The notes below the pieces were generated by a model, which ran no database searches, was not told the DNA's origin, and saw only the letters and a list, made by a program, of their open reading frames with translations. Source: an uncultured Pelagibacteraceae bacterium (GTDB taxonomy: Bacteria > Pseudomonadota > Alphaproteobacteria > Pelagibacterales > Pelagibacteraceae). Taken from it: 37,541 bases of DNA. Below, one piece after another: positions 1 through 37,541 of the stretch (within the stretch, counting starts at the first letter, position 1; each line of letters opens with the position of its first letter). The DNA lies in the NCBI GenBank assembly GCA_902545635.1, contig CACCGT010000012.1, positions 1-37,541 on the forward strand. The letters are read 5' to 3'. The position numbers were made by a program, and so were the translations under genes.

Positions 1-356
1 TACTTGATATATATGATTTTTTTGAAACAAAATTAAAATATATAAGAAAAAAAGGAATTAATCATAATAATATTATATTAGATCCAGGAATTGGATTTGG
101 AAAAAATTTGAAACATAATATTACTCTTTTAAAAAATATTTCTATTTTTCATTCGTTAGGACTTCCTGTAATGTTGGGTTTATCGAGAAAAAGATTTATA
201 AAGGATATTTCAAAAGAGAATGATACTAGAGAAAGACTTGGAGGCACAATATCGTCCTGTATTCAATCATATTTGCAAGGAGTTCAAATTTTAAGGATTC
301 ATGATGTTAAAGAAATTAATCAAGCATTTAAAGTATTTAAAGAATTACAATATTAA
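1..356 (+). CDS. folP: Dihydropteroate synthase, C-terminal part (5' end cut by window)
   Basis: FolP joins p-aminobenzoate to the pterin pyrophosphate to make dihydropteroate in folate synthesis. The reading frame is open from base 3, giving about 117 residues of an enzyme usually near 270. The fragment carries the pterin-binding DPGIGFGKN motif (fragment residues 27-35), then GLSRKRF with the conserved Ser-Arg-Lys, RLGGT, and the C-terminal LRIHDV motif with its conserved Arg and His. A TTG at 108 could be read as a start, but the DPGIGFG motif lies before it in the same frame, so it is internal. The stop is 2 bp before glmM; folP-glmM is a common alphaproteobacterial pair, usually behind ftsH. 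Confidence 0.93.
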   Translation, partial: LDIYDFFETKLKYIRKKGINHNNIILDPGIGFGKNLKHNITLLKNISIFHSLGLPVMLGLSRKRFIKDISKENDTRERLGGTISSCIQSYLQGVQILRIHDVKEINQAFKVFKELQY

Positions 357-358
357 AT

Positions 359-1690
359 ATGTTTAAAAAATATTTTGGCACGGATGGAATAAGAGGAAGA
401 GTTAATGGCTCAAAAATTAATGGTGAAATGTTTTTTAAATTTGGATTAGCAGCAGGGACATATTTTAAAAATTTAAAAAAAAGTAAGCAGACAGCAATTA
501 TTGCTAAGGACACAAGGTTATCTGGCTACACACTTGAGCCAGCTTTGGTATCTGGATTGGCCTCAGCAGGTATGCATATTTATACACTAGGACCACTACC
601 AACCAATGGTCTAGCAATGTTAACAAAAAAAATGAGAGCAAATATGGGGATAATGATTACAGCATCTCATAATCCATACTATGACAATGGTTTAAAGCTG
701 TTTGGACCAGATGGGCTTAAACTATCTGATAGAATTGAAAAAAAAATTGAAAAGTTAATTGACTCAAAAATTGCTAAAAATCTCTCAAGACCAATTGAAT
801 TAGGAAGAGTTAAAAGATTAGAAGATGCAACCAGTAACTACATAAAAATTTTAAAACAAAATTTTCCTCCTTCATTTAGTTTAAAAGGTATCAAAATAGC
901 TTTAGATTGTGCCAATGGTGCAAGTTATAAAGCCGGTCCTAAACTGTTTACATCTTTAGGAGCCAAAGTTTTTAAATCTGGCACTTCTCCAAATGGATTA
1001 AATATAAATCTTAAATCTGGATCAACTTATCCAAAAAAAATTTGTCAAATGACTATAAAAAAAAAGGCTCATATAGGTATAGCTCTTGATGGTGACGCAG
1101 ATAGAATTATTGTATGTGATGAAAAAGGTAGAATTATTGATGGAGATAAAATTCTTGCAATGTTAGGCGAGAGATGGAAAAGAAAAAAAATTTTAAAAGG
1201 TGGAGTTATTGGAACATTAATGTCAAATTATGGTTTAGAGGAATTTTTTAAAAAAAATAGGATAAAATTCTTCAGATCAAATGTAGGAGATCGATATGTT
1301 AAAGAAAAAATGAAAAAAAATAGATTTAATTTAGGAGGAGAACAATCAGGCCATATAATTCTTGGTAAGTTCGCAACCACGGGAGATGGATTATTGGTTG
1401 CCTTAGAAATCCTTTTTTCTCTAAGAAAAAGAAAAAAAGCAAGTGAACTTTTTAATAAATTTAATCCCACTCCTCAAATATTAGAAAATGTGGTTGTAAA
1501 AGATAAATCAATCATTGATAGTCCAAAATGTAAAAAAGCGATTTCAGTTGCAAATAAAATTATAAAAAATAAAGGTAGAATACTTGTTAGAAAGTCTGGT
1601 ACCGAACCAAAAATTAGAATTATGAGCGAATCGAAAGATTCAAGTTTAAATAAATTATGTATTAATATAATTAAAAAATCTATTCAGTAA
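359..1690 (+). CDS. glmM: Phosphoglucosamine mutase
   Basis: This 443-residue protein converts glucosamine-6-phosphate to glucosamine-1-phosphate, feeding UDP-GlcNAc for peptidoglycan and lipid A in the cytoplasm. The alpha-D-phosphohexomutase features are all present: GTDGIRG near the N-terminus (7-13), the phosphoserine loop TASHNP with Ser103, the Mg-binding DGDADR (244-249), the sugar-specificity loop GGEQSGH (326-332) and the phosphate-binding RKSGTEPKIR (411-420). TASHNP with GGEQSGH, together with the length, favours GlmM over phosphomannomutase or phosphoglucomutase. The ATG lies 2 bp after the folP stop and the TTG of thiD follows directly, so folP-glmM-thiD-purA look like one transcript. 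An identical mirrored copy sits at 35852-37183. Confidence 0.95.
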   Translation: MFKKYFGTDGIRGRVNGSKINGEMFFKFGLAAGTYFKNLKKSKQTAIIAKDTRLSGYTLEPALVSGLASAGMHIYTLGPLPTNGLAMLTKKMRANMGIMITASHNPYYDNGLKLFGPDGLKLSDRIEKKIEKLIDSKIAKNLSRPIELGRVKRLEDATSNYIKILKQNFPPSFSLKGIKIALDCANGASYKAGPKLFTSLGAKVFKSGTSPNGLNINLKSGSTYPKKICQMTIKKKAHIGIALDGDADRIIVCDEKGRIIDGDKILAMLGERWKRKKILKGGVIGTLMSNYGLEEFFKKNRIKFFRSNVGDRYVKEKMKKNRFNLGGEQSGHIILGKFATTGDGLLVALEILFSLRKRKKASELFNKFNPTPQILENVVVKDKSIIDSPKCKKAISVANKIIKNKGRILVRKSGTEPKIRIMSESKDSSLNKLCINIIKKSIQ

Positions 1691-1691
1691 A

Positions 1692-2504
1692 TTGAAAATA
1701 AATTCTAAAATATTAATTATTGCAGGGTCAGACTCTTCTGGTGGAGCAGGTATTCAAGCAGATATCAAATCTGTTACATCTCTTGGTTCTTATGCAATGA
1801 CAGCAATTACAGCGGTTACAGCACAAAATACCAAAGGTGTAAAATCAATAATACCAATACCAATTAAAGAGATTTCAAACCAGATTGAATTTACCTCTAA
1901 AGATATAAAACCAGATTCAGTAAAGATTGGAATGTTATATTCCACACAAGTAATTGAATCAGTATTAAAATCAATAAAAAAATTAAAATTAAAAAAAATA
2001 ATATTAGATCCTGTAATGGTGGCTAAAGGCGGAACTAAGCTTATAGATGATAAAGCGGTTTTAGATTTAAAAAAAAAACTAATTAATAAAGTGGATTTAA
2101 TTACACCAAATATTCCTGAAGCAGAAATATTAACTGCAATGAAGATCAAATCTATGCATGATATGAAAAACGCTGCTTATAGAATATTAGATTTAGGTGT
2201 AAAAAATGTTTTAATTAAAGGTGGTCATTTACAGTCTAAAATTTTGAAAGATGTTTTTGTAAACAAGAAAGAAATTGCAATATTTACTAATAAAAAAATT
2301 AAAACAAAAAATACTCATGGAACTGGATGCACATTATCAAGTGCAATTGCAACATATTATGGATGTGGAAAAACATTAAAGAAATCTTGTGAGTTAGGCA
2401 TTAGGTATGTAAATAATGCTATAAAGACAAGGCCAAACTTTGGAAAAGGAAATGGACCAATTAACCATTTAAATAGTTTTATTATAGAAAAGAAATTTAG
2501 ATGA
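1692..2504 (+). CDS. thiD: Hydroxymethylpyrimidine (phosphate) kinase
   Basis: ThiD phosphorylates the pyrimidine precursor HMP(-P) to HMP-PP for thiamine synthesis. The 270-residue protein has the ribokinase-fold signature [14 protein letters not shown] (11-24), DPVMVAKGG (106-114), TPNIPEAE (138-145) and the anion-hole/catalytic loop HGTGCT (209-214). The start is a TTG one base after the glmM stop; the signature motif begins ten residues later, so no later start is possible. No TPP riboswitch or other thi gene is nearby. SAR11 cells are known to need an HMP-type thiamine precursor, so in this background ThiD would serve salvage; that is inference from the taxon. The last 4 bp (ATGA) overlap the start of purA. 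Confidence 0.93.
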
Positions 2505-3790
2505 AAAATGTAGTTGTTGTCGGTTCTCAATGGGGAGATGAAGGAAAAGGAAAAATAGTTGACTGGTTGTCTAGTGAAGCTGATGTGGTTGTTAGATTTC
2601 AAGGTGGCCATAATGCAGGTCATACATTAGTCATAGATGGAGTTACTTATAAATTAAGACTATTACCATCTGGCATTGTGAGAAAAAATAAAATTTCTAT
2701 TATAGGAAACGGAGTTGTTGTCGACCCATGGGCTTTGCTTGACGAAATTAAAGAAGCCAAATCTAAAGGTGTACAAATAAATGATAGTAATTTGATATTA
2801 TCTGAAGCGGCAACTTTAATTTTACCATTTCACAGAGAGATGGATGAAATTAGAGAGGACTCTGCAGGTAATTCTAAAATTGGAACTACAAGAAGAGGAA
2901 TTGGACCAGCTTATGAAGATAAAGTAGGAAGAAGATCTATACGAGTAATGGATCTAGCATCAAAAAAAAATCTTGAAAAAAGATTAACCGTAGTACTTGA
3001 ACATCATAACGCAATACGCAAGGGATTAGGTAAATCTCTATATGAGAAAAAAAAATTAGTTGAAGAATTAGTAAAAATAGCACCAAATATTTTAAAGTAT
3101 TCGGCACCTGTTTGGAGAAAAATAGATCAATTTAAATCAGAAAATAAGAAAATTTTATTCGAGGGTGCTCAAGGTATATTACTTGATGTTGACCACGGAA
3201 CTTACCCATATGTAACTTCATCAAATACAGTTGCAGCTTCTGCAGCAACAGGATCTGGATGTGGCCCCAATTCGATAAATTTTGTTTTAGGTATAACAAA
3301 GGCATATACAACAAGAGTAGGTGAAGGGCCTTTCCCAACTGAACTTACTGATGATGTTGGCAATCATTTAGGAGAAAAGGGACATGAATTTGGAACAGTA
3401 ACTAGCAGAAAAAGAAGGTGCGGCTGGTTTGATGGAGTTTTAGTAAGGCAAACCATAAAGATTTCAGGCATTGATGGTATAGCGCTAACTAAGTTAGATG
3501 TTTTAGATGAACTTGATGAAATTAATGTTTGTGTGGCCTACGATCTTAACGGAAAAGAAATAGATTATTTTCCAGCCGCAGTAGAGGATCAATTAAATGT
3601 TAAACCAGTTTATAAAAAATTTAAAGGTTGGAAATCTAAAACCCAGGGAATTAAAAAATTTGAAAATTTACCTAAGAATGCCAAGATTTATATAAAAGCA
3701 ATTGAGGAGTTTATTGAAACAAAAATATCAAGTATTTCAACGAGTCCTGAGCGAGAAGATACTATTCTTTTAATAGATCCGTTTAATTAG
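2501..3790 (+). CDS. purA: Adenylosuccinate synthetase
   Basis: PurA makes adenylosuccinate from IMP, aspartate and GTP, the first committed step to AMP. The 429-residue length is standard. The P-loop-like [11 protein letters not shown] (8-18) and GGHNAGHT (36-43) place the catalytic Asp13 and His41 at the numbering of the E. coli enzyme; the IMP-binding [14 protein letters not shown] follows at 128-141. The gene begins inside the last codons of thiD, and its last 8 bp overlap the convergent rpoH. No terminator fits between them, so both transcripts must run into each other's coding sequence. The mirrored copy is at 33752-35041. Confidence 0.97.
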
Positions 3791-4673
3791 CAGGTAATAA
3801 ATTTTTTGATTTAGCAGAGTTCAGCATATGCTTCTGTAATTTTTCAAATGCCTTATTTTCAATTTGTCTAACTCTTTCTCTGCTTATTTTATATTTTTTA
3901 CTAAGCTCATCTAAAGTTGTTGGTTCATCAGTTAGCCTTCTTGAATATAGGATTTTTTTTTCTCTGTCATTTAATACTTTAATTGAGTCTTGAAGTAAGT
4001 CTTTTCTCTGCTCCATTTCATCATTTTGAGCAATTTTTAATTCATGATCCATATCATTATCTACCACCCAGTCTTGCCACTCATCACCATCCTCACCAAT
4101 GGGTGCATTTAAAGATTGTTCTTTACCCGAAAGTCTTCTATTCATGGAAATTACTTCATCTTCACTTACTGAGAGTCTTTTTGCAATATCCTCAACATGT
4201 TCTTTTTTAAGATCTCCCTCTGATCTAGGGGCTATTTGGTTTTTAATTTTTTTTAAATTAAAGAATAGTTTTTTTTGAGCAGTTGTTGTACCTATTTTAA
4301 CTAAACTCCATGATCTTAAAATATATTCTTGTATTGAAGCTTTTATCCACCACATTGCATACGTAGCAAGTCTGAAGCCTTTCTCTGGCTCAAATTTCTT
4401 TACTGCTTGCATTAGTCCCACATTTCCTTCAGATATCATTTCATTTAGAGGCAAACCATAGCCTTTGTAACCCATAGCAATCTTTGCAACCAATCTAAGA
4501 TGGCTAGTTACTAACTTTTCGGCTGATTTCACATTTCCTGTTGACTGCCAATTTTTGGCTAACATATACTCTTCCTCAGCTGCAAGCATAGGAAATTTCT
4601 TTATCTGTGAAAGGTATGCAGCTAACCCACCTTCATTTGAAAGTGCAGGTAAATTGTAGTTATTGTTATTCAT
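3783..4673 (-). CDS. rpoH: RNA polymerase heat-shock sigma factor (sigma-32)
   Basis: This 296-residue sigma-70-family protein directs RNA polymerase to heat-shock promoters. Region 2 is clear ([20 protein letters not shown] at 59-78, then [15 protein letters not shown]). It is followed by the RpoH box [10 protein letters not shown] (133-142), which separates RpoH from the housekeeping RpoD. Region 4.2 has a helix-turn-helix ending in [14 protein letters not shown]. Region 1.1 is absent, as expected. The ATG is followed by an Asn run (MNNNNYN). No Shine-Dalgarno is visible; an AT-only palindrome occupies the place where one would be. Identical copy at 32869-33759. Confidence 0.95.
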
Positions 4674-4679
4674 TCGAAG

Positions 4680-4700
4680 TATTTATTTAATAAATAAATA
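4680..4700 (-). promoter_or_regulatory. AU-only hairpin directly upstream of rpoH start
   Basis: A 21-bp palindrome with two 10-base arms around one central base lies 7-27 bases before the rpoH ATG, in the 43-bp gap after rluD. As RNA it would form an A-U-only stem over the ribosome-binding region. A weak heat-labile hairpin at this place could act as a thermosensor, as the rpoH leader does in E. coli by a different structure. In so AT-rich a genome it may equally be chance or part of the promoter. The structure is seen; the function is speculation. Confidence 0.3.
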
Positions 4701-4716
4701 AAATTTTACAATGTTT

Positions 4717-5697
4717 TTATTTATTGATTTTTCTTAGTTTTTTAAGAATTTTTTCCAAATCACCAGGTAATTTTGATGAAAATTCTAGCCATCGATTATT
4801 TTTTGGATGATTAAAACCGAGTGTTTTAGCGTGTAGAAATTGTCTATCAAGAGAAACTAGGCACTTCTCGAGTTCAGGATTTATATTAATGAATTTTTTA
4901 AATTTTTTCTTATATTTTTTATCACCTAAAATATTATTCCCTTTGTTAGACAAGTGAACTCTTATCTGATGAGTTCTACCTGTTTCTAATTTACACTCAA
5001 TAAGACTTAATGTTGGTACATCATCATTTTCAAATATTTCTAAAGTTTTGTAGTTCGTTATAGCTTTTTTACCTTTATTTAAAGAGACCTCCATCATTTG
5101 TCTGTTCTTTGAGCTTCTTGTAATAAATGTTTCAATTTTTCCATTTTGGGGTCTTATTTTGCCCCAGACCAAAGCCTGGTAAACTCTTGTAATAGAATGC
5201 TCAGAAAACTGATTAGATAAATTTTCATGGGATACATTATTTTTGGCAATTACAATTAATCCAGATGTCTCTTTATCTATCCTATGAACAATGCCTGGTC
5301 TTAATTCGTTTCCAATATTTGATAAATTATTACCAGTATAATTAATTAGGGCATTTACAATTGTATTGTCATAATTTCCTGGTCCAGGATGTATTGAAAT
5401 TCCAGCTGATTTATTTAATACAATCAAATCTTCATCCTCATGAATTATTTCAAGAGGATAATTAAATGGTGTAAGACTTTCTTTTTTTGGTTCTACAATT
5501 TCAAAAAATATTTCATCATCTAATTTAACTTTTCTAGATGGATCAGTAACAATTATATTGTTTATTTTTAAGTTATTTTCTAAAATTAAAACTTTTACTC
5601 TCGATCTACTTAATTTATTGTTCTGATTTGACAACAAAACGTCAATTCTTAAATTATTTTCTTTATTTTTAACTTTTATATTTATATTACTTTTCAT
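4717..5697 (-). CDS. rluD: 23S rRNA pseudouridine synthase, RluD type
   Basis: A member of the RluA/RluD family, which converts uridines to pseudouridine in 23S rRNA. An S4-like RNA-binding domain (about 15-65, with RIDVLL and SRSRVKVLI) precedes the catalytic domain. That domain contains HRIDKETSG (138-146) with the catalytic Asp141, and RTHQIRVH further on. The S4 domain and 326 residues favour RluD (helix 69 sites) over RluA, but RluC is not excluded. I chose the ATG at 5697: an upstream ATG at 5733 would extend the gene 15 bp into tRNA-Arg. The gene precedes rpoH on the same strand after a 43-bp gap. Mirror copy at 31845-32825. Confidence 0.88.
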   Translation of the reverse strand: MKSNINIKVKNKENNLRIDVLLSNQNNKLSRSRVKVLILENNLKINNIIVTDPSRKVKLDDEIFFEIVEPKKESLTPFNYPLEIIHEDEDLIVLNKSAGISIHPGPGNYDNTIVNALINYTGNNLSNIGNELRPGIVHRIDKETSGLIVIAKNNVSHENLSNQFSEHSITRVYQALVWGKIRPQNGKIETFITRSSKNRQMMEVSLNKGKKAITNYKTLEIFENDDVPTLSLIECKLETGRTHQIRVHLSNKGNNILGDKKYKKKFKKFININPELEKCLVSLDRQFLHAKTLGFNHPKNNRWLEFSSKLPGDLEKILKKLRKINK

Positions 5698-5718
5698 GTT
5701 ATTATAATTATACAATAT

Positions 5719-5795
5719 GCGCTTGTAGCTCAACTGGATAGAGCGCCAGATTTCGGCTCTGGAGGTTCAGGGTTCGACTCCTTGCGGGCGCACCA
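5719..5795 (+). tRNA. tRNA-Arg (anticodon UCG)
   Basis: A 77-nt cloverleaf with genomically encoded CCA. The acceptor stem GCGCTTG pairs with CGGGCGC (two G-U pairs). The anticodon stem CCAGA/TCTGG encloses the loop TTTCGGC, so the anticodon is UCG, reading CGA/CGN arginine codons. The T-arm CAGGG-TTCGACT-CCTTG is standard. A TATAAT at 5703-5708 is suitably placed as its -10 box, within the start region of the divergent rluD. The 3' CCA ends one base before the stop codon of the convergent ABC permease, leaving no spacer. A mirrored copy is at 31747-31823. Confidence 0.95.
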
Positions 5796-6587
5796 TTACT
5801 CTCCCATGTTAATTAATGTACCCCTATTTTTTGCAGCATTAAATGAATAATAAAATAAAATTATTGAAAGTGTAAAATATAAAGCATTCCAAATGAAAGC
5901 ATTATAAATATTTTCAATATCCACAGTTTGATTAATCAAGATGTTTCTAGCTTCCTCAAATATATATACTAACGGTAAGATATAAGCTATTTTTTGAAAT
6001 ACTTCTGGAAGAGTTTCTATAGGGTAATAAATACATCCAAATGGTGCAAGTAAAAACATTGTCGACCATGCTATATTCTCAAATGATGGGCCAAATCTAA
6101 GTAATCCTGAAGAAACCAAAATTCCTAGCGTAATCCCAAAAATATAAAGACTCAGAAATAGAAAAAACAAAAATATTCCCAACTCTAAGATTGAAATTCC
6201 AAATAATGGGGAAGTTAGTAAGACTGCTGGAACTAGACCAATTAAAGATCTTATTAATGCTGTTATAACAAGTGAAGTTAGAATTTCACCAATTTTCATA
6301 GGCGCTATAAAAAGATTAGTAAAATTTCTACTCCAAATCTCCTCTAAAAAAAGCATATTAAAACCAATACTTGTTCTGAACAAAAAATCGTAGAGTATTG
6401 CACAAGTCAAAATGACACCAACTGCATTGTTGTAATAAGTTGTGTGTGTAGCAAAAAAATTTGAGATAAATCCCCAAAGAGTAATTTGAATAGTTGGCCA
6501 GTATACTAAATCTAAGATTCTAGGAAATGATCTAGTTATAAGATAAAAATGTCTTAAAAATAAACCATATATTCTAGTTAAACTCAC
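5796..6587 (-). CDS. ABC-2 type exporter permease
   Basis: A 263-residue integral membrane protein with about six hydrophobic segments, near residues 25-50, 55-75, 105-125, 135-165, 170-195 and 235-255. The layout, length and the late GPSFENIAW...FLLAPFGCIYYP stretch fit the ABC-2 permease family (NodJ-like drug, polysaccharide or lipid exporters). The substrate cannot be told. The start is a GTG at 6587 inside the last codons of the ATPase gene (14-bp overlap), which suggests translational coupling of the two transporter subunits. The stop codon touches the CCA of tRNA-Arg. An orphan mirrored copy without a full ATPase is at 30955-31746. Confidence 0.85.
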   Translation of the reverse strand: MSLTRIYGLFLRHFYLITRSFPRILDLVYWPTIQITLWGFISNFFATHTTYYNNAVGVILTCAILYDFLFRTSIGFNMLFLEEIWSRNFTNLFIAPMKIGEILTSLVITALIRSLIGLVPAVLLTSPLFGISILELGIFLFFLFLSLYIFGITLGILVSSGLLRFGPSFENIAWSTMFLLAPFGCIYYPIETLPEVFQKIAYILPLVYIFEEARNILINQTVDIENIYNAFIWNALYFTLSIILFYYSFNAAKNRGTLINMGE

Positions 6588-7311
6588 TTTTGCTCCTTGA
6601 AAGTTTTAAGAAAACTTCTTCTAGATTTGTTCTTCCGTGCTTAGTAATCAAATCATCAGGCGTACCTTGGTCTATAATCTCTCCATTTTTCATCATTAGC
6701 ACTGATTTGCACAATCGTGTGACTTCGCTCATATTATGAGAGGCTAAAAGTACCGAGATTTTTTTTTCTTTTTTATATTCTTCTAAAAAAGTTCTAACAA
6801 AATCACCTACTTCCGGGTCTAAAGATGCTGTTGGCTCGTCAAGCAAAAGTACCCTTGGTTCATTAATTAATGCTTTTGCTAAACTTACTCTATTTTTTTG
6901 ACCAGAGGATAATTCACCAGTAATACTATCCAATAATTCTTTTATTCTCAATTTTTCTGAAAGATATTCAATTCTCTCCTCAATATTTTGGACTTTATAA
7001 AGTTTAGCATAAACATTTAGATTTTGCTTTACAGTCAGCTTTTTTGGTAATTCAATATATGGAGATATAAAATTAATCATTTCGAGTATTTCAATTCTAT
7101 GATTTTCAAGTTTAAGATTATTAATCAATATTTGTCCACTTGTTGGCTTTAGCAAACCAAGTAACATTCCAATAGTTGTAGTTTTACCTGAGCCATTTGG
7201 TCCAAGCAAACCTAGAATTTCATTTTCTTGAACATTAAAAGAAATACCTTTCACAGCTTCTTTTTTCCCATAATTTTTTTTTATATTTTTTACTTCAATT
7301 AAATTTTTCAT
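6574..7311 (-). CDS. ABC transporter ATP-binding protein (partner of ABC-2 permease)
   Basis: This 245-residue ATPase would energise export through the adjacent permease. Walker A GPNGSGKTT (37-45), signature LSSGQ (134-138), Walker B LLLDEP (155-160), D-loop SLD and the switch His192 (ASHNMSE) are all intact. The best-fitting group is the ATPases paired with ABC-2 permeases, such as NodI-like and drug exporters; no substrate is indicated. Its ATG overlaps the stop of tsaC by 4 bp, so tsaC and the two transporter genes probably share a transcript. The left repeat arm ends within this gene: the last 20 codons lie in the arm and are duplicated at the end of ilvB at 30906-30968. Confidence 0.93.
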   Translation of the reverse strand: MKNLIEVKNIKKNYGKKEAVKGISFNVQENEILGLLGPNGSGKTTTIGMLLGLLKPTSGQILINNLKLENHRIEILEMINFISPYIELPKKLTVKQNLNVYAKLYKVQNIEERIEYLSEKLRIKELLDSITGELSSGQKNRVSLAKALINEPRVLLLDEPTASLDPEVGDFVRTFLEEYKKEKKISVLLASHNMSEVTRLCKSVLMMKNGEIIDQGTPDDLITKHGRTNLEEVFLKLSRSKSEFN

Positions 7312-8240
7312 TTTTTTGATGCCCTCAAAAGTCTATCGTTAATTGCCTCACCAATTTGAACATTTGGTATTTTCTCAACCGCAATTTTTTTATATCCATT
7401 TTTTTTTATTTTTCTTAATGTTTTGTATAAATTTTTTGCTGCCTCATTTAAATTTTTAGTTTTACTTAAATAAAAATAATTTTTATTTTTTTTTTTCCTT
7501 TTTTTTATCAAAATAAAAGCCTCATCATCATTATTTTTTTTGACATTTAGTCTCATAGGGATTCCAGGAGAATAATGCAATTTACTGCTACCTGGCATTT
7601 TTACATTTATTTCTCTTTTTTGATTATTTTTTGATGATTTGATAAATTTATAAATTGTTTTACTATCTATACCTCCCAATCTAAGAATATTAGGCTTACC
7701 GACAAGATTTATTATAGTAGACTCCAAACCTACCTTTGAAGAGCCTCCTTCTAAAACAAATTTAATTTTATTCCCAAATTCATCAATTACGTCTTGTTTT
7801 GAAACTGGACTAATACTTGATGAAATATTTGCACTCGGAGCTGCGAGAGGATAATCAATTTCTTTTAATATCTTTCTGGTTAAATGATGACTTGGAAATC
7901 TTACTGCTACCAAATTTGAGTTATTTGTGACTATTTTTGAAATTTTACTAGTCTTTTTAAGTTTTAAAACAAACGAAATTGCTCCTGGGCAAAATTTTTT
8001 GTAAAGCCTCTTGAAAACACTATTTAATTCACAATCCTTTTTTAATTGATTGATATCATTATAGTGAACAATTAAAGGATTACTACTAGGTCTTTTTTTT
8101 AACTTAAATATTTTTGATACAGCCTTTTTTGAGTAGGCATTTGCAGCCAACCCATAAACAGTTTCGGTTGGGATTGCTACACATTCATCATTATTCAAAT
8201 ATTTTATTGTTTTTTTGATATTTGAATCGTCAATTTTCAT
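7308..8240 (-). CDS. tsaC: L-threonylcarbamoyladenylate synthase (Sua5/YrdC type)
   Basis: This enzyme makes threonylcarbamoyl-AMP from threonine, bicarbonate and ATP, the first step of the t6A37 modification of ANN-decoding tRNAs. The YrdC core occupies about residues 8-205 with PTETVYGLA (24-32), KRPSSNPLIVH (49-59) and APSAN (134-138). The HYSPGIP linker (about 222-228) leads into a shorter C-terminal Sua5-like domain, so at 310 residues this is the longer Sua5 form, not the short YrdC. The tail is very Lys-rich with poly-Lys stretches. It is divergent from xseB with only about 20 bp between the two starts, so both promoters must overlap coding sequence. Confidence 0.9.
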   Translation of the reverse strand: MKIDDSNIKKTIKYLNNDECVAIPTETVYGLAANAYSKKAVSKIFKLKKRPSSNPLIVHYNDINQLKKDCELNSVFKRLYKKFCPGAISFVLKLKKTSKISKIVTNNSNLVAVRFPSHHLTRKILKEIDYPLAAPSANISSSISPVSKQDVIDEFGNKIKFVLEGGSSKVGLESTIINLVGKPNILRLGGIDSKTIYKFIKSSKNNQKREINVKMPGSSKLHYSPGIPMRLNVKKNNDDEAFILIKKRKKKNKNYFYLSKTKNLNEAAKNLYKTLRKIKKNGYKKIAVEKIPNVQIGEAINDRLLRASKK

Positions 8241-8260
8241 ATAATATTACCAACTAATAT

Positions 8261-8515
8261 ATGAATGAAAAAAATTTGCTAGATGATATTACATCAAAAT
8301 CTTTAAATGAGCTTACGGATTTAGCTGATAAAATTATTAAAAATTTGGAAAATGAAATAAATTTAGAAAATAAATCAGAGGACTATGCAAATTTGATTAA
8401 AATAAATAAACTTATAGAAAAAAAATTTCAAAAAAACTTTAAAGAAATATCAGAAAAATCAAATTCAAAAATCAAAGAAATAAAATCAAAGAAAGATGGA
8501 AAAAAAACTAAATAG
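8261..8515 (+). CDS. xseB: Exodeoxyribonuclease VII small subunit
   Basis: An 84-residue, highly charged, all-helical protein. Exo VII degrades single-stranded DNA, and several XseB chains bind one XseA. The match rests on the family pattern: an LNEL...DKIIKNLENEINLE helix (compare the usual LEEIVxxLExGxLxLE), followed by a second helix with KKFQKNFKEISEKSN. It also rests on position: xseB-ispA-dxs is a widely conserved gene order. Sequence alone would be weak because the protein is short and Lys/Asn-biased. The 3' end overlaps ispA by 20 bp. The large subunit gene xseA is not in the window. Confidence 0.8.
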   Translation: MNEKNLLDDITSKSLNELTDLADKIIKNLENEINLENKSEDYANLIKINKLIEKKFQKNFKEISEKSNSKIKEIKSKKDGKKTK

Positions 8516-12357: not shown

Positions 12358-12389
12358 TATCTTACTGTATAAATTATTTTTTTAAAATT

Positions 12390-14023: not shown

Positions 14024-14065
14024 GTTTTAAAACTATTATATACAAATTATTAATATACTTATCAA

Positions 14066-14093: not shown

Positions 14094-14133
14094 TAGGGTT
14101 TATAATATATTTAAAAAACTTATAAAAATTTTA

Positions 14134-24579: not shown

Positions 24580-24594
24580 AAAAATACACTTACC

Positions 24595-24622: not shown

Positions 24623-24632
24623 GAATGTCATT

Positions 24633-26593: not shown

Positions 26594-26610
26594 ACTAAAA
26601 ATAATTTAAA

Positions 26611-26796
26611 ATGAGAGAATTGATCATAGCTTTTGGTCTTTTCTTATTTATTGAGGGTGTTTTGTATGCCTTATTTCCATCAAAAATGAAAAATATGTTA
26701 AAAAAATTGGATTTGGTTGCAGATAGACAATTAAGAATAGGTGGTTTAATTTTTGCTTTAATTGGTTTTGCAATAATTCGTTATTTAAAAGTATGA
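26611..26796 (+). CDS. DUF2065 (YjeT-like) small inner-membrane protein
   Basis: A 61-residue protein of unknown function made of two membrane helices (about 3-22 and 42-58) around a short basic loop (FPSKMKNMLKKLDLVADRQLR). The pattern, with G near the centre of helix 2 and a short charged tail, matches the DUF2065/YjeT family. Members are regularly found next to hflK-hflC, in alphaproteobacteria between hflC and degP exactly as here. A link to membrane-protein quality control is inferred from that position only. The stop overlaps degP by 4 bp (ATGA). Confidence 0.85.
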   Translation: MRELIIAFGLFLFIEGVLYALFPSKMKNMLKKLDLVADRQLRIGGLIFALIGFAIIRYLKV

Positions 26797-28190: not shown

Positions 28191-28194
28191 TCAA

Positions 28195-29103: not shown

Positions 29104-29156
29104 TTTATCTCTACTATAACTTGACCAATGAGCACAACTTCAGCTAGATTGTCTGA

Positions 29157-30968
29157 ATGCCAAAATTATATTCGGGAGCTGAAATTGTATTTAAATGTTT
29201 AGAAGATCAAAACGTTAGTCATATTTTTGGGTATCCAGGAGGAGCAGTACTTCCAATTTATGATGAGTTAAAAAATTTTAATTCTATAAAACATATTTTA
29301 GTAAGACATGAGCAAGGTGCAGGACATGCTGCGGAAGGTTATGCAAGATCAACAGGTAAACCTGGAGTACTATTAGTAACATCAGGACCTGGGGCTACAA
29401 ATGCAGTTACTGCTCTAACAGATGCTTACATGGACTCAGTCCCATTAGTTTGTATTACAGGACAAGTTCCAACTCATCTAATCGGAACTGATGCATTTCA
29501 AGAGTGTGACACAACTGGAATTACTAGACCTTGCACTAAACATAATTGGTTAGTTAAAGATATAAATGATCTAGCAGAGATAATGCACAAAGCTTTTGAA
29601 GTAGCAACTACGGGAAGACCAGGGCCAGTGCTAGTTGATATTCCAAAGGACATACAATTCCTAAAGACAAAATATAAAAATTATCAAAAAGTTAAAAAAT
29701 TAAATGGCAAATCTCATGATAATTTTTCTCAAAAAAATATTGATGACTTAATTGGATTAATTAGTAAGGCAAAAAAACCGATATTTTATACAGGGGGTGG
29801 AGTAGTTAATTCAGGACCAAAGGCTAGTGAACTTTTAAGAGAGCTTGTGTACGCAACTGGATTTCCTATAACCTCAACTTTACAGGGTCTGGGTTGTTTT
29901 CCTGCTGATGATAATCAGTTTTTAGGAATGTTAGGAATGCATGGTACCTATGAAGCTAACAATGCAATGTACAGTTGTGATCTTATGATAAATATTGGAG
30001 CAAGATTTGATGATAGGATAACTGGTAAGATTGATGAGTTCTCACCTAAATCTAAAAAAGTTCATATTGATATTGATCCATCGTCTATAAACAAAAATGT
30101 TAAGGTGGACTTACCAATAGTTGGAGATATTAAATCAGTTTTAACATCTACACTAAAAACTTTAAAAAAATCAAAAAAGAATTTTTCTAAATCAAATAAA
30201 TATCAAATATCAAATTGGTGGGAAAAAATTCAAAAGTGGAGATCTAAACGTTCTTTAGATTATATTGGTAGCGAAGAGACAATTAAACCACAATATGCCA
30301 TTGAAAGATTATATGAACTTACAAAAGATAGAGATGCCTATATTACAACTGAGGTTGGCCAACATCAAATGTGGGCTGCCCAACATTATAAATTTAATAA
30401 ACCAAATAGATGGATGACATCAGGTGGTCTTGGAACCATGGGATATGGTTTGCCGGCTGCAGTTGGAGTTCAGATAGCGCATCCTAAAAAATTAGTTATT
30501 GATATTGCTGGTGAAGCCTCAGTTTTAATGACTATGCAGGAAATGTCTACTGCTGTTCAGTATAATTTACCAATAAAAATATTTATCTTAAATAATGAGT
30601 ACATGGGTATGGTAAGACAGTGGCAGGAGTTATTGCATGATAAAAATTATTCTGAGAGTTATACTGCTGCGTTACCAGATTTTGTTAAAATGGCTGAAGC
30701 TTATGGATGTGTTGGCATAAGAGCAAAAACACCTGAAGAGTTAGATGACAAGATTATTGAAATGTTAAATACTGATCGACCTGTAATATTTGACTGTCTT
30801 GTAGACAAACAAGAAAATTGTTTTCCAATGATTCCTTCAGGAAAACCACATAATCAAATGTTACTAGGTCCAAAAGATCAAAAAGAGAAAAAAATTACAG
30901 GAAAAGGAAGAACAAATCTAGAAGAAGTTTTCTTAAAACTTTCAAGGAGCAAAAGTGAGTTTAACTAG
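29157..30968 (+). CDS. ilvB: Acetolactate synthase large subunit, 3' end replaced by ABC ATPase tail
   Basis: IlvB is the TPP/FAD enzyme making acetolactate or acetohydroxybutyrate for Val, Leu and Ile. Residues 1-583 are normal IlvB: GYPGGAVLPIYD, the cofactor-activating Glu52 in RHEQGAGHAAEGYA, FAD-binding region, then DIAGEASVLMTMQEMS and NNEYMGMVRQW. The metal-binding GDG/GDAS position holds Glu453 instead of Asp. The last 20 codons (30906-30968) are identical to the end of the ABC ATPase gene at 6636-6574, in the same frame, so the native final residues are missing and the reading frame closes on the ATPase stop. The expected ilvN partner is absent. The native part is certain; the fused end is probably a fold-back artefact. 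Confidence 0.9.
   Translation: MPKLYSGAEIVFKCLEDQNVSHIFGYPGGAVLPIYDELKNFNSIKHILVRHEQGAGHAAEGYARSTGKPGVLLVTSGPGATNAVTALTDAYMDSVPLVCITGQVPTHLIGTDAFQECDTTGITRPCTKHNWLVKDINDLAEIMHKAFEVATTGRPGPVLVDIPKDIQFLKTKYKNYQKVKKLNGKSHDNFSQKNIDDLIGLISKAKKPIFYTGGGVVNSGPKASELLRELVYATGFPITSTLQGLGCFPADDNQFLGMLGMHGTYEANNAMYSCDLMINIGARFDDRITGKIDEFSPKSKKVHIDIDPSSINKNVKVDLPIVGDIKSVLTSTLKTLKKSKKNFSKSNKYQISNWWEKIQKWRSKRSLDYIGSEETIKPQYAIERLYELTKDRDAYITTEVGQHQMWAAQHYKFNKPNRWMTSGGLGTMGYGLPAAVGVQIAHPKKLVIDIAGEASVLMTMQEMSTAVQYNLPIKIFILNNEYMGMVRQWQELLHDKNYSESYTAALPDFVKMAEAYGCVGIRAKTPEELDDKIIEMLNTDRPVIFDCLVDKQENCFPMIPSGKPHNQMLLGPKDQKEKKITGKGRTNLEEVFLKLSRSKSEFN
30898..30916. other. Fold-back junction between ilvB and the inverted arm
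   Basis: To the left the sequence is ilvB (...ITGKG); from 30906 it equals the complement of 6636 downward. The first shared bases are GGAAGAAC. A short match of this kind between ilvB and the ATPase end is what a fold-back priming event needs, though its true length cannot be seen because the native ilvB end is not here. The join happens to keep the frame, so it produces no visible frameshift. Confidence 0.9.
30906..30968 (+). pseudogene. 3' fragment of the ABC ATPase gene (last 20 codons)
   Basis: This stretch is the mirror of 6574-6636 and encodes only the ATPase C-terminus (GRTNLEEVFLKLSRSKSEFN) plus stop. All nucleotide-binding motifs are missing, so it has no ATPase function. It is read as the tail of the ilvB frame. 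Its last 14 bases hold the GTG start of the copied permease. Confidence 0.9.
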
Positions 30969-31746
30969 AATATATGGTTTATTTTTAAGACATTTTTATC
31001 TTATAACTAGATCATTTCCTAGAATCTTAGATTTAGTATACTGGCCAACTATTCAAATTACTCTTTGGGGATTTATCTCAAATTTTTTTGCTACACACAC
31101 AACTTATTACAACAATGCAGTTGGTGTCATTTTGACTTGTGCAATACTCTACGATTTTTTGTTCAGAACAAGTATTGGTTTTAATATGCTTTTTTTAGAG
31201 GAGATTTGGAGTAGAAATTTTACTAATCTTTTTATAGCGCCTATGAAAATTGGTGAAATTCTAACTTCACTTGTTATAACAGCATTAATAAGATCTTTAA
31301 TTGGTCTAGTTCCAGCAGTCTTACTAACTTCCCCATTATTTGGAATTTCAATCTTAGAGTTGGGAATATTTTTGTTTTTTCTATTTCTGAGTCTTTATAT
31401 TTTTGGGATTACGCTAGGAATTTTGGTTTCTTCAGGATTACTTAGATTTGGCCCATCATTTGAGAATATAGCATGGTCGACAATGTTTTTACTTGCACCA
31501 TTTGGATGTATTTATTACCCTATAGAAACTCTTCCAGAAGTATTTCAAAAAATAGCTTATATCTTACCGTTAGTATATATATTTGAGGAAGCTAGAAACA
31601 TCTTGATTAATCAAACTGTGGATATTGAAAATATTTATAATGCTTTCATTTGGAATGCTTTATATTTTACACTTTCAATAATTTTATTTTATTATTCATT
31701 TAATGCTGCAAAAAATAGGGGTACATTAATTAACATGGGAGAGTAA
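30955..31746 (+). CDS. ABC-2 type exporter permease, mirrored copy
   Basis: Identical to the 263-residue, six-helix permease at 5796-6587. Here the gene follows ilvB and lacks its own ATPase, of which only 20 codons remain, so as placed it would be an orphan half-transporter driven from the ilvB promoter. This loss of a coupled partner argues that this is the derived copy. Its stop codon touches the copied tRNA-Arg. Confidence 0.85.
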   Translation: MSLTRIYGLFLRHFYLITRSFPRILDLVYWPTIQITLWGFISNFFATHTTYYNNAVGVILTCAILYDFLFRTSIGFNMLFLEEIWSRNFTNLFIAPMKIGEILTSLVITALIRSLIGLVPAVLLTSPLFGISILELGIFLFFLFLSLYIFGITLGILVSSGLLRFGPSFENIAWSTMFLLAPFGCIYYPIETLPEVFQKIAYILPLVYIFEEARNILINQTVDIENIYNAFIWNALYFTLSIILFYYSFNAAKNRGTLINMGE

Positions 31747-31823
31747 TGGTGCGCCCGCAAGGAGTCGAACCCTGAACCTCCAGAGCCGAAATCTGGCGCT
31801 CTATCCAGTTGAGCTACAAGCGC
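31747..31823 (-). tRNA. tRNA-Arg (anticodon UCG), mirrored copy
   Basis: Exact reverse complement of the tRNA at 5719-5795, with the same CCAGA/TCTGG anticodon stem, UCG anticodon and encoded CCA. The TATAAT at 31834-31839 (minus strand) is kept, so the copy would be expressible if real. Two identical copies of a CGN-reading tRNA would be unusual in a streamlined genome. Confidence 0.93.
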
Positions 31824-31844
31824 ATATTGTATAATTATAATAAC

Positions 31845-32825
31845 ATGAAAAGTAATATAAATATAAAAGTTAAAAATAAAGAAAATAATTTAAGAATTGA
31901 CGTTTTGTTGTCAAATCAGAACAATAAATTAAGTAGATCGAGAGTAAAAGTTTTAATTTTAGAAAATAACTTAAAAATAAACAATATAATTGTTACTGAT
32001 CCATCTAGAAAAGTTAAATTAGATGATGAAATATTTTTTGAAATTGTAGAACCAAAAAAAGAAAGTCTTACACCATTTAATTATCCTCTTGAAATAATTC
32101 ATGAGGATGAAGATTTGATTGTATTAAATAAATCAGCTGGAATTTCAATACATCCTGGACCAGGAAATTATGACAATACAATTGTAAATGCCCTAATTAA
32201 TTATACTGGTAATAATTTATCAAATATTGGAAACGAATTAAGACCAGGCATTGTTCATAGGATAGATAAAGAGACATCTGGATTAATTGTAATTGCCAAA
32301 AATAATGTATCCCATGAAAATTTATCTAATCAGTTTTCTGAGCATTCTATTACAAGAGTTTACCAGGCTTTGGTCTGGGGCAAAATAAGACCCCAAAATG
32401 GAAAAATTGAAACATTTATTACAAGAAGCTCAAAGAACAGACAAATGATGGAGGTCTCTTTAAATAAAGGTAAAAAAGCTATAACGAACTACAAAACTTT
32501 AGAAATATTTGAAAATGATGATGTACCAACATTAAGTCTTATTGAGTGTAAATTAGAAACAGGTAGAACTCATCAGATAAGAGTTCACTTGTCTAACAAA
32601 GGGAATAATATTTTAGGTGATAAAAAATATAAGAAAAAATTTAAAAAATTCATTAATATAAATCCTGAACTCGAGAAGTGCCTAGTTTCTCTTGATAGAC
32701 AATTTCTACACGCTAAAACACTCGGTTTTAATCATCCAAAAAATAATCGATGGCTAGAATTTTCATCAAAATTACCTGGTGATTTGGAAAAAATTCTTAA
32801 AAAACTAAGAAAAATCAATAAATAA
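31845..32825 (+). CDS. rluD: 23S rRNA pseudouridine synthase, RluD type, mirrored copy
   Basis: Same 326-residue protein as at 4717-5697, with S4-like domain and catalytic Asp141 in HRIDKETSG; it would isomerise uridines in 23S rRNA. The ATG at 31845 is chosen for the same reason: the upstream in-frame ATG at 31809 lies within the tRNA-Arg sequence. There is not one amino-acid difference from the other copy, which two functional copies of any age would be expected to show. Confidence 0.86.
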   Translation: MKSNINIKVKNKENNLRIDVLLSNQNNKLSRSRVKVLILENNLKINNIIVTDPSRKVKLDDEIFFEIVEPKKESLTPFNYPLEIIHEDEDLIVLNKSAGISIHPGPGNYDNTIVNALINYTGNNLSNIGNELRPGIVHRIDKETSGLIVIAKNNVSHENLSNQFSEHSITRVYQALVWGKIRPQNGKIETFITRSSKNRQMMEVSLNKGKKAITNYKTLEIFENDDVPTLSLIECKLETGRTHQIRVHLSNKGNNILGDKKYKKKFKKFININPELEKCLVSLDRQFLHAKTLGFNHPKNNRWLEFSSKLPGDLEKILKKLRKINK

Positions 32826-32841
32826 AAACATTGTAAAATTT

Positions 32842-32862
32842 TATTTATTTATTAAATAAATA
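32842..32862 (+). promoter_or_regulatory. AU-only hairpin upstream of the copied rpoH
   Basis: Mirror of the 21-bp palindrome at 4680-4700, ending 6 bases before the rpoH ATG at 32869. The two 10-base arms around one central base are unchanged. It gives no independent support for function because the whole arm is a copy. Confidence 0.3.
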
Positions 32863-32868
32863 CTTCGA

Positions 32869-33759
32869 ATGAATAACAATAACTACAATTTACCTGCACT
32901 TTCAAATGAAGGTGGGTTAGCTGCATACCTTTCACAGATAAAGAAATTTCCTATGCTTGCAGCTGAGGAAGAGTATATGTTAGCCAAAAATTGGCAGTCA
33001 ACAGGAAATGTGAAATCAGCCGAAAAGTTAGTAACTAGCCATCTTAGATTGGTTGCAAAGATTGCTATGGGTTACAAAGGCTATGGTTTGCCTCTAAATG
33101 AAATGATATCTGAAGGAAATGTGGGACTAATGCAAGCAGTAAAGAAATTTGAGCCAGAGAAAGGCTTCAGACTTGCTACGTATGCAATGTGGTGGATAAA
33201 AGCTTCAATACAAGAATATATTTTAAGATCATGGAGTTTAGTTAAAATAGGTACAACAACTGCTCAAAAAAAACTATTCTTTAATTTAAAAAAAATTAAA
33301 AACCAAATAGCCCCTAGATCAGAGGGAGATCTTAAAAAAGAACATGTTGAGGATATTGCAAAAAGACTCTCAGTAAGTGAAGATGAAGTAATTTCCATGA
33401 ATAGAAGACTTTCGGGTAAAGAACAATCTTTAAATGCACCCATTGGTGAGGATGGTGATGAGTGGCAAGACTGGGTGGTAGATAATGATATGGATCATGA
33501 ATTAAAAATTGCTCAAAATGATGAAATGGAGCAGAGAAAAGACTTACTTCAAGACTCAATTAAAGTATTAAATGACAGAGAAAAAAAAATCCTATATTCA
33601 AGAAGGCTAACTGATGAACCAACAACTTTAGATGAGCTTAGTAAAAAATATAAAATAAGCAGAGAAAGAGTTAGACAAATTGAAAATAAGGCATTTGAAA
33701 AATTACAGAAGCATATGCTGAACTCTGCTAAATCAAAAAATTTATTACCTGCTAATTAA
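32869..33759 (+). CDS. rpoH: Heat-shock sigma factor RpoH, mirrored copy
   Basis: Identical to the 296-residue sigma-32 at 3783-4673, including the RpoH box [10 protein letters not shown] and the region 4.2 helix-turn-helix. Many alphaproteobacteria do carry two rpoH paralogues, but those differ in sequence; perfect identity together with identical flanks shows this is the same gene copied, not a paralogue. The 8-bp convergent overlap with purA is also preserved. Confidence 0.93.
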
Positions 33760-35041
33760 ACGGATCTATTAAAAGAATAGTATCTTCTCGCTCAGGACTC
33801 GTTGAAATACTTGATATTTTTGTTTCAATAAACTCCTCAATTGCTTTTATATAAATCTTGGCATTCTTAGGTAAATTTTCAAATTTTTTAATTCCCTGGG
33901 TTTTAGATTTCCAACCTTTAAATTTTTTATAAACTGGTTTAACATTTAATTGATCCTCTACTGCGGCTGGAAAATAATCTATTTCTTTTCCGTTAAGATC
34001 GTAGGCCACACAAACATTAATTTCATCAAGTTCATCTAAAACATCTAACTTAGTTAGCGCTATACCATCAATGCCTGAAATCTTTATGGTTTGCCTTACT
34101 AAAACTCCATCAAACCAGCCGCACCTTCTTTTTCTGCTAGTTACTGTTCCAAATTCATGTCCCTTTTCTCCTAAATGATTGCCAACATCATCAGTAAGTT
34201 CAGTTGGGAAAGGCCCTTCACCTACTCTTGTTGTATATGCCTTTGTTATACCTAAAACAAAATTTATCGAATTGGGGCCACATCCAGATCCTGTTGCTGC
34301 AGAAGCTGCAACTGTATTTGATGAAGTTACATATGGGTAAGTTCCGTGGTCAACATCAAGTAATATACCTTGAGCACCCTCGAATAAAATTTTCTTATTT
34401 TCTGATTTAAATTGATCTATTTTTCTCCAAACAGGTGCCGAATACTTTAAAATATTTGGTGCTATTTTTACTAATTCTTCAACTAATTTTTTTTTCTCAT
34501 ATAGAGATTTACCTAATCCCTTGCGTATTGCGTTATGATGTTCAAGTACTACGGTTAATCTTTTTTCAAGATTTTTTTTTGATGCTAGATCCATTACTCG
34601 TATAGATCTTCTTCCTACTTTATCTTCATAAGCTGGTCCAATTCCTCTTCTTGTAGTTCCAATTTTAGAATTACCTGCAGAGTCCTCTCTAATTTCATCC
34701 ATCTCTCTGTGAAATGGTAAAATTAAAGTTGCCGCTTCAGATAATATCAAATTACTATCATTTATTTGTACACCTTTAGATTTGGCTTCTTTAATTTCGT
34801 CAAGCAAAGCCCATGGGTCGACAACAACTCCGTTTCCTATAATAGAAATTTTATTTTTTCTCACAATGCCAGATGGTAATAGTCTTAATTTATAAGTAAC
34901 TCCATCTATGACTAATGTATGACCTGCATTATGGCCACCTTGAAATCTAACAACCACATCAGCTTCACTAGACAACCAGTCAACTATTTTTCCTTTTCCT
35001 TCATCTCCCCATTGAGAACCGACAACAACTACATTTTTCAT
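33752..35041 (-). CDS. purA: Adenylosuccinate synthetase, mirrored copy
   Basis: Identical to the 429-residue enzyme at 2501-3790 (IMP + Asp + GTP to adenylosuccinate), with Asp13 and His41 in place. A second purA in a cell with so compact a genome has no evident purpose. Start and stop overlaps with thiD and rpoH are the same as in the left arm. Confidence 0.95.
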
Positions 35042-35850
35042 CTAAATTTCTTTTCTATAATAAAACTATTTAAATGGTTAATTGGTCCATTTCCTTTTCC
35101 AAAGTTTGGCCTTGTCTTTATAGCATTATTTACATACCTAATGCCTAACTCACAAGATTTCTTTAATGTTTTTCCACATCCATAATATGTTGCAATTGCA
35201 CTTGATAATGTGCATCCAGTTCCATGAGTATTTTTTGTTTTAATTTTTTTATTAGTAAATATTGCAATTTCTTTCTTGTTTACAAAAACATCTTTCAAAA
35301 TTTTAGACTGTAAATGACCACCTTTAATTAAAACATTTTTTACACCTAAATCTAATATTCTATAAGCAGCGTTTTTCATATCATGCATAGATTTGATCTT
35401 CATTGCAGTTAATATTTCTGCTTCAGGAATATTTGGTGTAATTAAATCCACTTTATTAATTAGTTTTTTTTTTAAATCTAAAACCGCTTTATCATCTATA
35501 AGCTTAGTTCCGCCTTTAGCCACCATTACAGGATCTAATATTATTTTTTTTAATTTTAATTTTTTTATTGATTTTAATACTGATTCAATTACTTGTGTGG
35601 AATATAACATTCCAATCTTTACTGAATCTGGTTTTATATCTTTAGAGGTAAATTCAATCTGGTTTGAAATCTCTTTAATTGGTATTGGTATTATTGATTT
35701 TACACCTTTGGTATTTTGTGCTGTAACCGCTGTAATTGCTGTCATTGCATAAGAACCAAGAGATGTAACAGATTTGATATCTGCTTGAATACCTGCTCCA
35801 CCAGAAGAGTCTGACCCTGCAATAATTAATATTTTAGAATTTATTTTCAA
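35038..35850 (-). CDS. thiD: Hydroxymethylpyrimidine (phosphate) kinase, mirrored copy
   Basis: The same 270-residue ribokinase-fold enzyme as at 1692-2504, again from a TTG start (read on the minus strand at 35850) one base after the glmM stop. [14 protein letters not shown] and HGTGCT are intact, so the copy would be active in thiamine-precursor phosphorylation if the duplication were real. Confidence 0.91.
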
Positions 35851-35851
35851 T

Positions 35852-37183
35852 TTACTGAATAGATTTTTTAATTATATTAATACATAATTTATTTAAACTT
35901 GAATCTTTCGATTCGCTCATAATTCTAATTTTTGGTTCGGTACCAGACTTTCTAACAAGTATTCTACCTTTATTTTTTATAATTTTATTTGCAACTGAAA
36001 TCGCTTTTTTACATTTTGGACTATCAATGATTGATTTATCTTTTACAACCACATTTTCTAATATTTGAGGAGTGGGATTAAATTTATTAAAAAGTTCACT
36101 TGCTTTTTTTCTTTTTCTTAGAGAAAAAAGGATTTCTAAGGCAACCAATAATCCATCTCCCGTGGTTGCGAACTTACCAAGAATTATATGGCCTGATTGT
36201 TCTCCTCCTAAATTAAATCTATTTTTTTTCATTTTTTCTTTAACATATCGATCTCCTACATTTGATCTGAAGAATTTTATCCTATTTTTTTTAAAAAATT
36301 CCTCTAAACCATAATTTGACATTAATGTTCCAATAACTCCACCTTTTAAAATTTTTTTTCTTTTCCATCTCTCGCCTAACATTGCAAGAATTTTATCTCC
36401 ATCAATAATTCTACCTTTTTCATCACATACAATAATTCTATCTGCGTCACCATCAAGAGCTATACCTATATGAGCCTTTTTTTTTATAGTCATTTGACAA
36501 ATTTTTTTTGGATAAGTTGATCCAGATTTAAGATTTATATTTAATCCATTTGGAGAAGTGCCAGATTTAAAAACTTTGGCTCCTAAAGATGTAAACAGTT
36601 TAGGACCGGCTTTATAACTTGCACCATTGGCACAATCTAAAGCTATTTTGATACCTTTTAAACTAAATGAAGGAGGAAAATTTTGTTTTAAAATTTTTAT
36701 GTAGTTACTGGTTGCATCTTCTAATCTTTTAACTCTTCCTAATTCAATTGGTCTTGAGAGATTTTTAGCAATTTTTGAGTCAATTAACTTTTCAATTTTT
36801 TTTTCAATTCTATCAGATAGTTTAAGCCCATCTGGTCCAAACAGCTTTAAACCATTGTCATAGTATGGATTATGAGATGCTGTAATCATTATCCCCATAT
36901 TTGCTCTCATTTTTTTTGTTAACATTGCTAGACCATTGGTTGGTAGTGGTCCTAGTGTATAAATATGCATACCTGCTGAGGCCAATCCAGATACCAAAGC
37001 TGGCTCAAGTGTGTAGCCAGATAACCTTGTGTCCTTAGCAATAATTGCTGTCTGCTTACTTTTTTTTAAATTTTTAAAATATGTCCCTGCTGCTAATCCA
37101 AATTTAAAAAACATTTCACCATTAATTTTTGAGCCATTAACTCTTCCTCTTATTCCATCCGTGCCAAAATATTTTTTAAACAT
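35852..37183 (-). CDS. glmM: Phosphoglucosamine mutase, mirrored copy
   Basis: Identical to the 443-residue GlmM at 359-1690, including the phosphoserine loop TASHNP and the Mg site DGDADR. It lies 2 bp after the copied folP fragment on the minus strand. Like its left-arm twin it belongs to the folP-glmM-thiD-purA run, which in this arm has no promoter inside the window because the run enters from the right edge. Confidence 0.93.
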   Translation of the reverse strand: MFKKYFGTDGIRGRVNGSKINGEMFFKFGLAAGTYFKNLKKSKQTAIIAKDTRLSGYTLEPALVSGLASAGMHIYTLGPLPTNGLAMLTKKMRANMGIMITASHNPYYDNGLKLFGPDGLKLSDRIEKKIEKLIDSKIAKNLSRPIELGRVKRLEDATSNYIKILKQNFPPSFSLKGIKIALDCANGASYKAGPKLFTSLGAKVFKSGTSPNGLNINLKSGSTYPKKICQMTIKKKAHIGIALDGDADRIIVCDEKGRIIDGDKILAMLGERWKRKKILKGGVIGTLMSNYGLEEFFKKNRIKFFRSNVGDRYVKEKMKKNRFNLGGEQSGHIILGKFATTGDGLLVALEILFSLRKRKKASELFNKFNPTPQILENVVVKDKSIIDSPKCKKAISVANKIIKNKGRILVRKSGTEPKIRIMSESKDSSLNKLCINIIKKSIQ

Positions 37184-37185
37184 AT

Positions 37186-37541
37186 TTAATATTGTAATTC
37201 TTTAAATACTTTAAATGCTTGATTAATTTCTTTAACATCATGAATCCTTAAAATTTGAACTCCTTGCAAATATGATTGAATACAGGACGATATTGTGCCT
37301 CCAAGTCTTTCTCTAGTATCATTCTCTTTTGAAATATCCTTTATAAATCTTTTTCTCGATAAACCCAACATTACAGGAAGTCCTAACGAATGAAAAATAG
37401 AAATATTTTTTAAAAGAGTAATATTATGTTTCAAATTTTTTCCAAATCCAATTCCTGGATCTAATATAATATTATTATGATTAATTCCTTTTTTTCTTAT
37501 ATATTTTAATTTTGTTTCAAAAAAATCATATATATCAAGTA
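37186..37541 (-). CDS. folP: Dihydropteroate synthase fragment, mirrored copy (cut by window end)
   Basis: The C-terminal 117 residues of FolP (folate synthesis), with DPGIGFGKN, SRK and LRIHDV, on the minus strand. It is cut at exactly the same base as the left-arm fragment: base 37541 is the complement of base 1. Two independent genomic copies would not be expected to be cut at the same nucleotide, unless the window ends were set by the repeat itself. Confidence 0.9.
   Translation of the reverse strand, partial: LDIYDFFETKLKYIRKKGINHNNIILDPGIGFGKNLKHNITLLKNISIFHSLGLPVMLGLSRKRFIKDISKENDTRERLGGTISSCIQSYLQGVQILRIHDVKEINQAFKVFKELQY

Follow-up and report, generated by a model that had tools for sequence, protein, structure and literature searches.

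When 475 MDA chimeras obtained from a single amplified E. coli cell were analysed, 85% proved to be inverted, and complementarity of at least 2 nt was found in 76.8% (PMC1855051). The partners of the inverted chimeras lay less than 10 kb apart in 337 of 406 cases, and those lying more than 10 kb apart showed complementarity in only 34.8%; in the same account, Lasken and Stockwell (2007) argue against hairpin self-priming as a major source of chimeras, and an average product length of 12 kb is cited (PMC1855051). For phi29 chimeras, overlaps have been reported to peak at 6 nt and to measure mostly 5-8 nt, with distances mainly from 0 to 5,000 nt and a peak at 250-300 nt (PMC4595205). In addition, palindromic long reads after whole-genome amplification have been documented (Pacasus, PMC6218980), and the procedure described for a marine single-cell genome compendium comprises phi29-type amplification and assembly with SPAdes, contigs shorter than 2,000 bp being dropped (PMC10224968). 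Among the papers listed on inverted chimeric contigs in single amplified genomes, none described, in its title or the opening of its abstract, the case reported below.

The window analysed here is an entire contig (C12) of 37,541 bp, taken from a SAR11-type assembly of 30 contigs and 1,147,963 bases with a completeness of 82.29%. When it was compared with its own reverse complement, bases 1-6636 matched 30906-37541 with 0 mismatches, and the first mismatch occurred at position 6637 (Table 1). The perfect arms of 6,636 bp each and the enclosed centre of 24,269 bp that a preliminary description had claimed were thus borne out, with zero differences over the full arms, and a chance origin of so exact a mirror is out of the question. 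Since the window is the whole contig, both arms finish precisely at contig ends; a real duplication would be expected to join its duplicate arm to further unique sequence, whereas here the arm stops where the contig stops.

Table 1. Features of the window, with coordinates, strand and the evidence for each
Feature	Position	Strand	Evidence
Native arm	1..6636	+	exact self-inversion, Pfam, tRNA; collinear with G012, G004 (from window position 42) and G036
Native unique centre, ABC ATPase gene to ilvB codon 583	6637..30905	+	one-orientation alignments to 30,907-30,914
Second arm, very probably false, reverse complement of 1-6636	30906..37541	-	self-inversion; relatives without it after ilvB; toy graph
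Fusion ORF, 603 aa: ilvB codons 1-583 + last 20 codons of ABC ATPase	29157..30968	+	
Junction overlap GGAAGAAC	30906..30913	+	also in ABC ATPase gene, 6629-6636 reverse; ilvB end as judged from relatives

Each arm contains six whole protein genes (glmM-like, thiD-like, purA, rpoH-like sigma factor, pseudouridine synthase and ABC-2 permease), named here after what we take their Pfam families to indicate, together with tRNA-Arg(TCG) and, from a folP-like gene of the pterin-binding family, the terminal 117 codons. The earlier count of seven duplicated genes and one tRNA agrees with this inventory, provided that the folP-like fragment is counted among the seven. In the native arm, the rpoH-like, pseudouridine synthase and ABC-2 permease genes lie on the minus strand, as does the end of an ABC ATPase gene, whose last 63 nt occupy the inner end of the arm (6574-6636) and whose last 20 codons and stop are included, as a copy of this segment, in the right arm. 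A mobile element or phage end was considered and rejected, as Pfam scans of 27 ORFs of the window pointed to ordinary chromosomal functions such as housekeeping and transport and revealed no integrase or transposase. Among other features of the window, a tmRNA gene (22488-22799, minus strand; tag ANESYALAA) bears the ARAGORN asterisk mark, which we take to mean the permuted type, and overlaps the end of an opposite-strand tRNA-Leu(GAG) by 15 bases. Two polyprenyl synthetase genes (8496-9365 and 13010-14023) are located within 6 kb of sequence on opposite strands, the former adjoining a DXP synthase gene.

A comparison of gene order with complete SAR11 genomes, which the preliminary description had proposed as a check, was made with G012 (a single contig of 1,343,202 bp); this genome proved collinear with the window up to about 30,910 and, in the stretch compared, carried a single copy of the arm. 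With stretches of 60 kb from G012, 40 kb from G004 and 68 kb from G036, alignments in one orientation were obtained to window 6-30907 in three consecutive pieces (G012, 74-88% identity), to 42-30914 in a single piece (G004, 85.4%) and to 1-30912, again in a single piece (G036, 94.1%). Within these stretches of all three relatives, the right arm aligned only back, in reverse, to their left arm. According to these alignments, the window joins segments of one genome region in opposite polarity, as an inverted chimera does. Similarly, window 1-8240 had exactly one full-length match in each of the six near genomes searched, which were reached via named loci. Identity along the native segment was uneven in 2-kb steps: to G036 it was 97.6-98.4% over 1-16,000, 96.6% at 16,001-18,000 and 82-94% from 18,001, and to G004 it was 75-77% over 1-4,000 and 93-94% over 16,001-22,000. 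This variation over 1-30905 looks like a recombination mosaic.

A wider set of 80 loci comprised 49 of SAR11 type, which were aligned, and 31 from other groups, which were left unused. In the 49 aligned loci, which reach at most 10 kb beyond ilvB and in some cases far less (22 bp in L077), no match of more than 400 bp extended beyond window position 30,914. The end of ilvB was examined in 24 of the 49; in every one the gene finishes with five native codons before the stop, and in none is it followed by the ABC tail. In the window, ilvB codon 583 passes directly into the ABC ATPase end at 30905/30906, and the 603-aa ORF spanning this point is most likely artificial and should be disregarded. 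Independent genomes with the same mirrored arrangement, which according to the preliminary description would show the duplication to be real, did not come to light: a degenerate join pattern allowing up to 3 mismatches was detected in only one of 399 genomes of the genus, namely this one, and was absent from the 398 others. As a control, the ABC half-site alone was detected in 40 of 61 genomes, twice in the present genome and once in every other; roughly one genome in three might thus escape the join pattern.

Past ilvB, the window continues with GGAAGAACAAATC, the same sequence as in the native ABC ATPase gene, and the nearest relatives at this locus (L060 and L074, about 93% identical) continue with GGAAGAACTTTAG. 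Because searches of the assembly with ilvB, with G004 DNA and with G036 DNA did not recover this genome's native ilvB end, the overlap at the join has to be judged from these two relatives, according to which the native ilvB end would carry GGAAGAAC and hence share 8 nt with the join. For an inverted MDA chimera, complementarity of 2-21 nt at the join would be expected. The stretch common to the join and the relatives' ilvB end measures 8 nt in L060, L074 and L065 and 9 nt in L064; in the other 20 of the 24 loci, including four of the six near relatives compared, just 2-4 nt are common. When sites of this DNA were paired at random, at least 8 shared bases were observed at a frequency of 0.0005. 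In addition, the top strand of 1-30905 contains GTTCTTCC a single time, and its position is precisely 6629-6636.

At both of its native ends, the segment 1-30905 seems to border on DNA that escaped recovery, because the long flanks as well as FtsH and IlvC lack proper counterparts in this assembly. On the left side, G036 has 19.9 kb before the segment, of which the first 2.1 kb alone has a long counterpart (on contig C21, 79% identity), the remaining 17.8 kb giving three matches of at most 56 bases; on the right side, G036 has 17.6 kb after ilvB, for which the matches measured at most about 280 bp, both searches having scored 40 candidate places, so that weak similarity could escape. A search for the left flank with G012 DNA returned two short matches and nothing more, and the outer 1,500 bp of the arm had no match longer than 52 bases anywhere else in the assembly. 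In G012, a 629-aa ORF lies to the left of the segment, which we take from its sequence to be FtsH. The best FtsH score in this genome was 28.4 bits against a family cut-off of 600, all 14 control genomes giving a match but only 10 of the 14 scoring above the cut-off. For the IlvC family, the best score was 120.7 bits against a cut-off of 226.15, which all 14 controls passed; this partial match, on contig C15, is taken for a paralogue. It was also observed that a contig of G004 (C5) has its start some 35 bp away from window position 1, and that the G036 DNA around this position contains 16-31% G+C per 100-base step over several hundred bases. The low G+C content is possibly a weak spot for coverage, or it may be a coincidence.

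With regard to the origin of the assembly, 44 of the 49 SAR11-type loci have AG- or AH- isolate names (such as AG-903-L07, AG-912-M06, and AG-916-O20), which we take to be single-cell plate names, and some relatives with names of this style are labelled 'MAG' in their titles. The smallest contig of the present assembly is 2,353 bp long, which is consistent with the 2,000-bp limit of the marine compendium and is no proof. This genome is probably a single-cell product amplified with phi29. Further mirrored pairs (at least 60 bp, at least 95% identity) were sought in 46 pieces amounting to 468,615 of the 1,147,963 bases, window included, and none was found apart from that of the window; internal chimeras may still exist in the interiors of the larger contigs. 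Similarly, self-inverted matches (at least 150 bp, at least 97% identity) were absent from the 172 loci scanned out of 179, which include pieces of this genome and relatives. The seven loci outside the main scan were five covering the window itself and two short loci on other contigs of this genome (L003 and L004), in which a separate scan detected no self-inverted match.

How little false sequence is needed for such a mirror was indicated by a toy de Bruijn graph, which was given the native sequence 1-30905 and 400 bp around the join (200 bp on each side). At each k (55, 77, 99, and 127), the graph consisted of two unitigs, of 6,636 bp and 24,377-24,521 bp, and the centre unitig, when extended through its only neighbours, reproduced the window base for base at all four k. 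In this graph, 200 bp of chimeric sequence beyond the join thus suffices for both arms. In this model, the arm length, the perfect identity and the mirrored ends can all be derived from one short false junction. If so, the length of the arm would reflect how far the partner site lies from the end of the covered island, rather than the extent of copying by the polymerase. The graph is a toy and not a real assembler, whose behaviour we infer from it.

Taken together, we consider it very probable that the mirror goes back to an inverted chimera which arose during amplification, borders on a gap in coverage and was turned into two perfect arms by the assembler. Window 1-30905 would then be a covered island, about 30.9 kb long, of an assembly that is of SAR11 type and probably derived from a single cell. 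In the course of the phi29 reaction, a newly made strand whose 3' end (...GGAAGAAC) lay at the ilvB terminus may have detached, and the loose strand would have primed on a displaced strand of the same polarity at the complementary GTTCTTCC (6629-6636) within the ABC ATPase gene; copying would then have proceeded leftwards from this site, yielding the inverted chimera. With the native DNA to the right of ilvB unrecovered, nothing would outvote the false join. The inner end of the segment 1-6636 would thereby offer the assembler two exits, one to the native centre and the other to the chimeric ilvB end, and by extending the centre through both of them the assembler would write 1-6636 twice and halt at the same dead end. 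We infer both the priming step itself and the path of the real assembler. The idea of an inverted MDA chimera, already put forward in the preliminary description, is well supported by the 8-nt overlap judged from relatives, by the single collinear copy in relatives and by the flanks missing on both sides. Counting against this reading are the partner distance of 24.3 kb, a range in which complementarity is less frequent among inverted chimeras, the overlap of 2-4 nt in 20 of the 24 loci, the lack of a second mirrored pair in the pieces scanned, the 'MAG' label of some relatives with single-cell style names, and the FtsH control, in which only 10 of 14 genomes passed the cut-off.

The preliminary description had gone further, proposing that a whole molecule folded back and that its 3' end copied its own 5' end over 6.6 kb, which would generate a physical chimera of 37.5 kb. 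This is a sub-case of an amplification artefact, and its probability, which lies inside that assigned to the artefact class, is low. The direction proposed there, with the partner upstream of the 3' end, fits the window, the product would look identical and no conflict with the data emerged; palindromic long reads after whole-genome amplification are also on record (PMC6218980). What did not stand is the need for such a molecule, as the toy graph suffices. Moreover, hairpin self-priming has been argued not to be a major route, and a loop of 24 kb is long against the average product length of 12 kb cited in that account (PMC1855051).

A real inverted duplication in the chromosome of the cell, in which a template switch at a short inverted match led to at least 6.6 kb being copied backwards and to the displacement of ilvN, appears very improbable. 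Template switching in living cells can also be guided by short inverted matches, and an exact mirror is what a very recent event would be expected to leave; however, such an event would leave ilvB with a foreign tail, its join pattern occurs in a single genome among the 399 of the genus, it does not require both arms to end at contig ends by long missing stretches, and the toy graph reproduces the window without it. A misjoin in library preparation or of purely computational origin, with no amplification chimera involved, is scarcely credible: although a few hundred bases of junction sequence were enough in the toy graph, an overlap of 8 nt is far below the k-mers tested (55-127), so that such an assembler would presumably not join the ends without chimeric molecules, and both the putative overlap length and the inverted polarity fit phi29 chimeras as described (PMC1855051, PMC4595205).

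On the preferred reading of an amplification chimera expanded during assembly, the gene duplications in this contig are very unlikely to be real and should be disregarded. If the duplication were true, rpoH, purA, glmM and tRNA-Arg would be doubled in the streamlined genome of one SAR11 cell. The value of the finding is for quality control only, in that over-counting or error affects six genes, one tRNA and one fused ORF of this genome. According to the toy graph, a few hundred chimeric bases next to a gap in coverage can yield long perfect terminal inverted repeats. In single-cell assemblies, any contig that forms an end-to-end mirror should be cut back to the join prior to counting gene copies.

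Compared with the chimeras of Lasken and Stockwell, as far as that account describes them (PMC1855051), the present case shares an inverted join within one region and, as far as they can be judged from relatives, a putative short complementarity and a probable single-cell amplification; unlike most of them, its partners lie 24.3 kb apart, and it is known from an assembled contig rather than from reads. A partner distance of less than 10 kb, which is a frequent trait of inverted chimeras and not a requirement, is exceeded here (24,269 bp). The putative 8-nt overlap falls within the common range of 5-8 nt given for phi29 chimeras, whereas the separation of 24.3 kb contrasts with the distances of mainly 0 to 5,000 nt given in the same source (PMC4595205). 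As in the Pacasus case, inverted duplications appear in an assembly of amplified DNA; in the Pacasus case they were reported to be gone after palindrome correction, and those data are from long reads of a eukaryote, whereas the present mirror is most likely an effect of a short-read graph (PMC6218980). In general, the polarity and the putative overlap of the join fit known chimeras well, and its separation places it in a minority class among them.
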